From Frigoribacterium sp. (GTDB lineage: Bacteria; Actinomycetota; Actinomycetes; Actinomycetales; Microbacteriaceae), in the NCBI GenBank assembly GCA_025363205.1, contig JANYEI010000145.1, positions 1 to 61,300 of the forward strand: a stretch of DNA of 61,300 nt, given 5' to 3'. Every line of letters begins with the position of its first letter. Positions within the stretch are counted from its first letter, which is position 1. Made by a program: the position numbers and the translations under genes. The notes below the pieces were generated by a model, which was not told the origin of the DNA, searched no databases, and saw only the letters and a list, made by a program, of their open reading frames with translations. Positions 2,538 through 46,540 of this stretch are shown here, piece by piece.

Positions 2538-5536
<2,999 letters not shown>

Positions 5537-45081: not shown

Positions 45082-45586
45082 ATAGACGACAGCGGGATGT
45101 GGGAAGCGTGTTTTGCCTCACGCTCGCGACGACGATGACCTCGTGGTGACGACGCTGGCGACGATCGGAAAGGTTAAACGCCTATGCAACAGCTCCCGTG
45201 TCGAGATGCGTGCGTGCGACCGCATGGGTTCAGGAAAAAGGGGGCCCGGCACAGTAACCACACGATGCCGGACCCCGGCGAAACCCGACGAAAAGAGTCG
45301 GCACGCGTCTGTGAAGATACACTCGCCGGTCGTGACCGGCAGTTCTCTCAGTAGTTTTGAAGGTTGCCGAGAGGAAAGCGCCCGAGGAATGTACCCCGCA
45401 GAGGGGGAGAAACGTGCATTCTGTCCCCTCGACGAGGGCGCATGACCGCAACGAAACGCCCCCACTTCGGGGCGACTTGGGGAGGTTGCCCTTGTGATTG
45501 GTTGTGGGAGCAGCGCACGGAGCGTAGCGTTGAACAGAGGTTCGGCGCGGGGACGCTGGCCTCACTGGGATTCGGGGGAATCTGAC
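45082..45586 (+). other. 500 bp non-coding stretch with nested inverted repeats
   Basis: No gene is supported on either strand. The region holds several strong inverted repeats: 45241-45244/45273-45276 with 45246-45251/45266-45271 (one C/A mismatch between), the 16-nt palindrome 45325-45340, a nested set with outer arms GCGCCC/GGGCGC (45378-45383/45436-45441) and inner GAATG/CATTC, and CGCCCC/GGGGCG (45457-45462/45469-45474). AGGTTGCC occurs at 45361 and 45483. The pattern fits a structured 5' leader of the secreted CAP-like gene or a separate small RNA. It does not match c-di-AMP (ydaO), cobalamin, c-di-GMP or RNase P signatures as I know them. Confidence 0.55.
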
Positions 45587-46540
45587 ATGAAGCGATTTGC
45601 TCTTCTTACGACGGTACTGACTGCCGTACTCACACTGCTTTTACCGTTCATCGGTGGCAGTGGACCGGCACTGACCGGAGGCGCCTCCTACGCCTCCGCA
45701 GCCGGATTTAACGGTCCGCGCTACGCCTCGTCGATTGATGCTCCCGCGACGGCGCCTCCGACCGAAACGTCAATCGCCTCCCATCGCGGTCAGCTCGCGA
45801 AGTCCCGCGCGGCCACCACGGCCCATCTCACCGTCGACACCGAGCACCTCGGCCAAAAGCCCGTGCCGATCCCTGTCGTGGTCGCCAGTCCGGCCGACCC
45901 GCCCGCCGCCGGTAATCCTGCCAGTCGCGGAGGCGCGAGCAGCAGGACACCCAATCGTGGAGGCGCCAGCAGCGCAGGCGGGAGCACGGCAGACCGCAGT
46001 TCGGCGGCCGCCGCGGCCGGAACGTCCTGCCCGGGCAACGGGGGTGGGGGTGGAAGCGCGCCCGGTGGAAGCGAATCGGGCATCGGCGGAACGACCAGCG
46101 GTGACATCCAGTCATTCTCAGCCGCCCTCAACTCGATCCGCGCCGCCAACTGTCTCCAGCCCATCGCCTCCGGAAACTTCCGCTACGACTCCTGCATGGA
46201 GCAGCGCCTCTACTGGATGGCAGAGGACCCGAGCACGAACCCCGGAAACACCTGGGGCCACACAGGCGTGAGAAGCCTCGCTCCCGACGCCAACGGCGTC
46301 TACTACTCGGATGCCGTGCCGGCCAAGGGATGCGATGGCAACCTGGCGGGTGGATCGGGCAACAGCGGCGCCACGGTCGCGCAGAAGTGGTGGGACTCTC
46401 TCTCGCATCGCGCTTCGCTCTACCGCCCGTCCGTTACCAGCACTGCGGGCGTCTGCATCTACTTTGCGATGACCCACGGGGGAGTGCCCAGCGAAAACCC
46501 CGGATTCGCCCGGGCTGCGGCCCGCTGGGGCGGATGCTGA
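45587..46540 (+). CDS. Secreted CAP/SCP-like protein
   Basis: 317 residues from the ATG at 45587 (GGGGGAA upstream). Signal peptide FALLTTVLTAVLTLLLPFIG, then about 130 residues of low-complexity Ser/Gly/Ala/Arg linker, and a C-terminal CAP-like domain: IQSFSAALNSIRAANCLQPI, YDSCMEQRLYWMAEDP, TWGHTGVRS, WWDSLSHRASLYRP, CIYFAMTHGG. CAP domains occur in secreted proteins of varied or unknown function. It has four or more Cys, probably disulfide-bonded outside the cell. A long structured leader precedes it. Confidence 0.82.
   Translation: MKRFALLTTVLTAVLTLLLPFIGGSGPALTGGASYASAAGFNGPRYASSIDAPATAPPTETSIASHRGQLAKSRAATTAHLTVDTEHLGQKPVPIPVVVASPADPPAAGNPASRGGASSRTPNRGGASSAGGSTADRSSAAAAAGTSCPGNGGGGGSAPGGSESGIGGTTSGDIQSFSAALNSIRAANCLQPIASGNFRYDSCMEQRLYWMAEDPSTNPGNTWGHTGVRSLAPDANGVYYSDAVPAKGCDGNLAGGSGNSGATVAQKWWDSLSHRASLYRPSVTSTAGVCIYFAMTHGGVPSENPGFARAAARWGGC

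Follow-up and report, generated by a model that had tools for sequence, protein, structure and literature searches.

CsrA/RsmA-regulated leaders carry hairpins with G-rich loops upstream of and over the Shine-Dalgarno sequence. In staphylococci, C-rich small RNAs (sRNAs) reportedly use two contacts, one at the Shine-Dalgarno sequence and one between loops, as in the pairs RNAIII-coa and RsaA-mgrA. In mycobacteria, the sRNAs B11 and 6C use their C-rich loops to pair with G tracts that coincide with ribosome-binding sites or lie close to them, as PMC10470900 and PMC12395582 describe. Our literature search on G-rich/C-rich Shine-Dalgarno regulation returned nothing apt to the leader presented below, and we make no wider claim on what is in print.

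The locus studied here, 45082-45586, lies in a stretch of 61,300 nucleotides from Frigoribacterium sp. that was analysed as a whole (the window). From left to right, the remnant of a PPOX gene is followed by a terminator-like hairpin that points leftward, then by C4-5/G4-5 dyads and a sigma-A-type promoter, and finally by a leader of ca. 50 nt (Table 1). We read it as a composite regulatory region and not as a single RNA, with operators, a promoter and a leader for translational control, and put the probability of this joint reading at about 0.5. The anatomy is well supported by sequence comparison; the mechanism is what we infer from it. Most of the region is an ordinary promoter region, and the leader with its twin hairpins makes up the final tenth. 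As far as we found, this leader is unannotated; its kind, the cis-regulatory mRNA leader, is already known. A preliminary description had proposed a structured leader built from inverted repeats over some 500 bp. A structured leader before the gene is indeed real, covaries in homologs and has no Rfam family, but the inverted repeats do not form it: they are located upstream of the promoter, in the gene remnant, the minus-facing terminator-like hairpin or the operator-like C/G dyads. The conserved structure occupies the last ca. 50 nt before the start codon, which that description had not singled out.

Table 1. Features of the region and the downstream gene, with the basis of each assignment.
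Feature	Position	Strand	Basis
Decayed PPOX-class F420-dependent oxidoreductase gene fragment	45122-45244	+	TIGR03666 match, identity to L032 copy
Terminator-like hairpin with T tail	45241-45276	-	Inverted-repeat search; conservation in L061 and L005
TGTACCCC box and dyad CCCCGCAGAGGGGG, operator-like	45390-45407	.	Dyads recurring in upstream regions
Wide dyad GGGGGA...TGTCCCC, operator-like	45403-45428	.	Runs kept in 8-sequence alignment
Palindrome CGCCCCCACTTCGGGG, operator-like	45457-45472	.	Similar palindrome in flagellar divergent region
-35 box TTGTGG	45502-45507	+	Fixed place in relatives
-10 box TAGCGT, spacing 17	45525-45530	+	Alignment, fixed distance from start
Predicted 5' leader of the CAP mRNA, ca. 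50 nt	45537-45586	+	Inferred from promoter position
Hairpin H1, loop CGGGGA	45537-45563	+	Arm-swap and shuffle controls
Hairpin H2, GGATTC-GGGG-GAATCT, presents Shine-Dalgarno G tract	45568-45583	+	Covariation, arm-swap, shuffle
Secreted protein of 317 aa with a CAP fold, divergent from Pfam models	45587-46540	+	Homolog structure model, alignment

The gene behind the leader starts with the ATG at 45587 and, as judged from structure modelling, encodes a divergent CAP-fold protein missed by Pfam. The window's protein has no match to Pfam and NCBIfam profiles at E ≤ 10 and none in a sequence search of the PDB at E ≤ 1; divergent subfamilies can escape profiles. A first structure model was poor (pLDDT 63.4) yet ranked PR-1 proteins first. 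The model of the homolog from locus L068, which is 74% identical to the window's domain, reached a pLDDT of 94.8, and its comparison by VIA-align placed GAPR-1 on top (Z 9.6, rmsd 2.9, 110 residues), with Borrelia BB0689 at Z 9.1 and Pry1 at Z 8.4. We take the 23 rows of this ranking to be of CAP/PR-1 type, except 8tid_P, from an axoneme complex and of a type that its title does not tell, and the last row, the unrelated 4onx (Z 2.8). Foldseek with the good model gave no match at E ≤ 0.001 and no CAP protein among the matches listed; as it is not significant alone, the assignment follows from the VIA-align ranking. The comparison of the homolog model bears out the preliminary label "CAP-like". 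Over 36 homologs, the C-terminal domain has a mean column identity of 68%, with invariant GCDGNLAGG and HGG blocks. A literature search on secreted CAP-domain proteins of Microbacteriaceae found nothing.

At E ≤ 0.001, a search of 299 genomes of the family yields CAP matches in 52, of which the one in G126 is weak. GTDB contigs supplied 44 loci; those titled to family or genus belong to Microbacteriaceae genera, e.g. Lacisediminihabitans, Salinibacterium and Microcella, while the titles of a few go no further than Actinomycetota or Micrococcales. The 58 distinct leaders were reduced to 55: L039, L045, L091 and L103 were removed for an unclear start, L096 was removed as the start of its contig falls within the gene, and L058 was included manually. 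Some of the 55 are near-identical, and alignment A1 has 53 distinct rows. One contig of Microcella pacifica carries two CAP genes ca. 9 kb apart (L087 and L092).

The promoter is a sigma-A-type hexamer pair, TTGTGG-N17-TAGCGT at 45502-45530, at a fixed distance before the CAP start. A best hexamer pair was found in 54 of the 55 upstream regions, 48 times with TTG, and the -10 box lies between -67 and -57 in 33 of the 55 (shuffled mean 0.13, maximum 1 in 60 shuffles). Five letters of the -10 box (T, A, C, G, T) do not vary across 12 aligned sequences. The pair thus combines what we looked for in an actinobacterial sigma-A promoter, namely a -35 TTGNNN, a spacing of 17-18, a -10 TANNNT and a conserved place; the Corynebacterium consensus in PMC3917453 was used for comparison. 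A simple scan for the strict consensus does not list the site. From the position of this promoter, transcription should start near 45537, and the nested repeats hence lie upstream of the predicted transcript; a start at 45180-45240, as suggested earlier, does not agree with this position. In several relatives (L047, L050, L078, L070 and others) a tRNA gene sits just upstream of the CAP promoter, a few hundred bases before the CAP gene; those in L070 and L078 are Rfam matches, the rest were recognised by eye.

Within the leader, H1 and H2 are adjacent, each has a G tract in its loop, and the Shine-Dalgarno G tract lies in and beside the loop of H2. In the 53 distinct sequences, 76.2% of the H2 cells are paired, compared with 57.6 +/- 2.0 after shuffling, and the covariation score is 0.554 against 0.255 +/- 0.026; none of 500 shuffles reaches either value. 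Sliding the partner arm lowers pairing and covariation, with the best values at slide 0. Two of the five measures for H2 are not above shuffles, namely pairs with two-sided changes (407/500) and further pair types (49/500). Shuffling everything but the G runs 200 times gave a further control: a strong H2 stem is found in 44 of 55 leaders versus 11.8 in shuffles (maximum 20), and a strong H1 stem likewise in 44 versus 21.8 (maximum 33). Exchanging the 3' arms between sequences reduces the fully paired cases from 37/52 to 13.8 (maximum 21) for H2, and from 25/48 to 5.7 (maximum 12) for H1. These shuffles leave the relatedness between sequences in place. The covariation claim combines the column-wise score of H2 with the shuffle and arm-swap scripts, which allow several registers. 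Structure kept by compensatory change, as expected of a cis-regulatory leader, is accordingly seen column by column for H2; for H1, it is the arm-swap and shuffle controls that support it.

Both hairpins are strong in 37 of the 55 leaders and at least one in 51; 18 have no strong stem at one or both places. GGGG is the common element of the homologs' loops, many of which have no GGA. Of the two closest relatives, L003 has no clear H1, and in L002 the loop of H1 has no GGGG. The window's own leader shows no unusual stability (z 0.17), and in a set of ten leaders, several yield alternative folds. The rows of the broad alignment A3 differ in loops and registers, for which reason RNAalifold returns no consensus pairs there; on 11 close sequences it returns H2 only, without any two-sided change.

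Comparison of homologous loci establishes that the dyads, the promoter and both hairpins are conserved, with covariation strongest for H2; what we propose beyond this is translational control through the G-tract loops. The leader would act on translation initiation and/or mRNA life: with the loops free, the ribosome would pair with the G tract offered by H2, and a trans-acting factor that holds the G tracts would shut it out. Our best guess, by analogy with mycobacteria, is that this factor is plausibly a 6C/B11-type sRNA with C-rich loops, two loops meeting two loops; the upstream dyads, acting as DNA operators, would add transcriptional control. As in 6C targets, a G tract is present at or near the ribosome-binding site. 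The four-base loop is short for a kissing contact, which counts against a loop-loop reading. A search at Rfam thresholds turned up no 6C-like RNA in the small part of the genomes covered, which comprised the window, one contig of the source genome, 16 loci of relatives, two flagellar loci and 400 kb from one relative; on source contig 6 and the 400 kb, Rfam matched tRNAs only, and in 14 loci of the source genome at E ≤ 1 it matched one tRNA, with two chance matches. A script scan of 446 kb (source contig 6 and the 400 kb of the relative) gave no convincing C-loop RNA; its yield was a single tandem pair of hairpins with C loops and a single C-loop hairpin resembling a terminator. In its fullest form, the proposal is a new actinobacterial family of mRNA leaders whose twin G-tract hairpins are clasped by the twin C-rich loops of a 6C-like sRNA. 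The clasp would stop a CAP-fold envelope protein from being made, and operator dyads, which also occur before flagellar genes, would add transcriptional control; we regard this full version as rather unlikely.

A covariance model of promoter plus leader found only the CAP site in the source genome, and with stricter filters it found 5 of 150 family genomes, all hits being at or beside CAP genes; the model therefore misses many CAP-positive genomes. That the leader stands before one gene only in the source genome would also suit a leader without any trans-acting reader, in which H1 is a protective hairpin at the very 5' end and H2, which covers the Shine-Dalgarno sequence, keeps it open in its loop for steady high expression. 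We consider this account less probable than the favoured one; it leaves unexplained why the G tract in the loop of H1 is kept in most leaders.

The G tracts would have a reader if a CsrA dimer bridged the two hairpins by GGA-like loops, one of them over the Shine-Dalgarno sequence. CsrA is encoded in the source genome, the window's loops contain GGGGA and GGGGGAA, and the two-site architecture resembles known CsrA leaders. Against this, 31 of the 52 CAP-positive genomes have no CsrA, both hairpins are kept in 14 of 19 genomes read that have no CsrA versus 4 of 9 with it, and the loops keep GGGG rather than GGA. A CsrA bridge is thus quite improbable, and CsrA as a general reader is rejected on its distribution and on the retention of the hairpins in genomes without it.

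Equally improbable is a reading in which the leader's G tracts serve as DNA operator units for the factor that would bind the upstream dyads, the flanking complementarity being a DNA palindrome. Several H1 loops do contain GGGGTAC, a unit also present in the upstream TGTACCCC, and L077 has GGGGTACA near the place of H1, where no hairpin was found. The 5-nt 5' arms, however, come in 30-31 different versions with complementarity still kept, and a protein reading DNA bases would not need arms that vary while their complementarity stays.

The inverted repeats of the preliminary description are present, e.g. 45241-45251/45266-45276 and 45394-45406/45425-45437, and inspection of the sequence also shows the nested pair near 45378-45441. 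Folding of the 505 nt is moderately better than that of shuffled sequences (z -2.24; 1 of 100 shuffles as good), and for 161 nt around the nested pair (45340-45500) z is -1.77, with 11 of 200 shuffles as good. As an RNA, the nested stem pairs in 49.1% of cells in 8 homologs (shuffled 42.7, 7/500) with a covariation score of 0.184 (shuffled 0.125, 16/500), which is weak beside the values for H2; the covariation expected among homologs is hence strong in H2 and slight in the nested stem. In the 8-sequence alignment, the conserved elements of the nested-stem region are the runs of G and C. The wide dyad is no better than shuffled as an RNA helix, and an alternative GAGGGG/CCCCTC helix was rejected as showing no excess (81.3 vs 80.2% paired in shuffles, 259/500); it pairs well because its runs hardly vary. 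No known RNA family covers any of the region, in agreement with the preliminary description: Rfam at gathering thresholds matches two tRNAs only in the whole window, and at E ≤ 10 the region has two matches, both far below threshold. The label "riboswitch-like" is not supported, since two small hairpins are in our judgement too little for a typical metabolite aptamer. That the upstream inverted repeats make a riboswitch-like leader or sRNA of ca. 500 nt, to which the modest folding excess and weak nested-stem covariation might point, is very improbable given the conserved promoter downstream of them, the gene remnant within, the low pairing of the nested stem and the lack of an Rfam match; on promoter position, remnant and nested-stem counts, we reject a riboswitch across the whole 500 nt.

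On the DNA level, dyads of the form CCCC-N3-8-GGGG occur in 34 of the 55 homologous upstream regions, compared with 4.0 +/- 2.0 in 200 shuffles (maximum 10), mostly 125-167 nt before the CAP start. We read the upstream dyads as probable DNA operator sites of a putative factor. In the source genome, CCCCANNNNGGGGG has 15 copies, several inside long reading frames, against 4 for the reversed control, and CGCCCCCA-N3-6-GGGG is not commoner than its reversed control (3 copies each); of these copies, one precedes the CAP promoter and another falls within a divergent region flanked by flagellar genes. The wide-dyad pattern, which does not match the window's own copy, has one match elsewhere in the source genome (control 0). 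RamA, which we take to be a LuxR-type regulator with C/G-run sites, is a candidate for the factor that we do not claim, and the RamA literature consulted gave no motif to compare with the dyads; TcrA of Actinoplanes was considered in this connection and set aside. Elsewhere in the source genome, two CCCC-GGGG dyads 64 bp apart stand directly before a gene for a 200-aa protein with no Pfam match (L168, 1500-1617, contig C6). At L175 (1480-1680), the stretch that separates a maltokinase-like gene from a reading frame has a CCCC-GGGG dyad and, after it, a hairpin-like TCGGGATACGGGGGTACTCCCGA, possibly a second leader in the style of the CAP leader.

Contrary to the preliminary description, the left part of the region is not free of gene sequence. 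The stretch at 45122-45244 encodes a decayed PPOX-class fragment: it matches TIGR03666 with 32.5 bits, below the cut-off of 84.9, over profile positions 33-82 of 132, and it shares 27 of 41 residues with the relative L032, where an open copy stands just upstream of CAP. DNA similar to 45121-45228 is found, at the DNA level, in L003, L004, L006, L007, L008 and L010, and L061 seems to hold another PPOX remnant. The neighbouring minus-strand hairpin has a CTTTTT tail in the window and is kept with the tail in L061 and without it in L005. Its loop exceeds the limit of 8 of the terminator scan, which does not list it; three other minus-strand sites are listed, versus 0.5 in shuffles. In three congeneric genomes (window, 45241-45276; L005, 1501-1550; L061, ca. 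3649-3700), the 14-nt loop CAGTAACCACACGA is identical and the stem changes compatibly; two of these sites are terminator-like on the minus strand. The congener with L005 (G237; 1500-1750) has no CAP gene and retains the hairpin and a short C/G-run stretch before a Gfo/Idh-like gene, the one that in the window comes after CAP. The arrangement looks as if CAP had been lost or gained at this locus.

The dyads also led to flagellar genes. Each of the four flagellated genomes in the genus has a CCCC-GGGG dyad in the flagellar divergent region, and L146, L149, L150, L151 and L154 have one at a comparable position; in the others of 19 flagellar loci scanned it is missing or placed elsewhere. The flagellin at the source genome's locus is a search match, and the sigma and flgN/flgK-like names of its genes are our reading. 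In the divergent region of the source genome (L142, 2561-2720, contig C210), the 14-mer CAGTAACCACACGA, an CCCCACTATGGGGG palindrome and an TGTACCCC box are present, all of which occur also before the CAP gene. In the flagellar loci of three congeners the CAGTAACCACACGA core was not found near the dyad, one having it ca. 1.7 kb away, so that the 14-mer common to the window and the source genome's flagellar locus may be shared by chance. Flagellin is encoded in 21 of 52 CAP-positive and 70 of 247 CAP-negative genomes (the 10 weakest of 101 flagellin genomes having been removed by hand; the search tool puts 94 above its cut-off), and across the family a flagellar link is not borne out as a general rule (Fisher p 0.098). 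Within the genus the counts are 4/4 and 0/2. A link between CAP and flagella is at most local. Our literature search on flagellar promoters and transcription factor binding in Microbacteriaceae found nothing.

If the joint reading is right, Microbacteriaceae gain a short, clearly covarying cis-regulatory RNA that is linked to a single secreted protein, together with a testable guess on its reader. It could extend regulation by C-rich loops and G tracts of the 6C/B11 type from mycobacteria to another order of Actinobacteria, and could show that target sites may be preformed as loops. A divergent CAP-fold protein that Pfam does not detect would, moreover, come under regulatory elements that may be common to it and flagellar genes.

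Compared with the CAP superfamily, the C-terminal domain of the homolog has a fold resembling GAPR-1, Borrelia BB0689 and Pry1, whereas the window's protein has no sequence match in Pfam, NCBIfam or the PDB and has its own GCDGNLAGG and HGG blocks. Like CsrA/RsmA leaders, the CAP leader has hairpins with G-rich loops upstream of and over the Shine-Dalgarno sequence; unlike them, its loops keep GGGG and not GGA, and most CAP-positive genomes are without CsrA. The contact at the Shine-Dalgarno sequence with a second, loop-loop contact, as is said of RNAIII-coa and RsaA-mgrA, resembles the proposed mode of action, but these belong to another phylum, and in the CAP leader both sites are hairpins close together with a putative partner RNA. 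Closest are the mycobacterial targets of 6C/B11, e.g. the eccB4 mRNA, which, according to PMC10470900 and PMC12395582, likewise combine a G tract in the 5' UTR or ribosome-binding site with an envelope or secretion-related gene. Unlike these targets, the CAP leader, known from sequence alone, shows its G tracts in the loops of two conserved hairpins.
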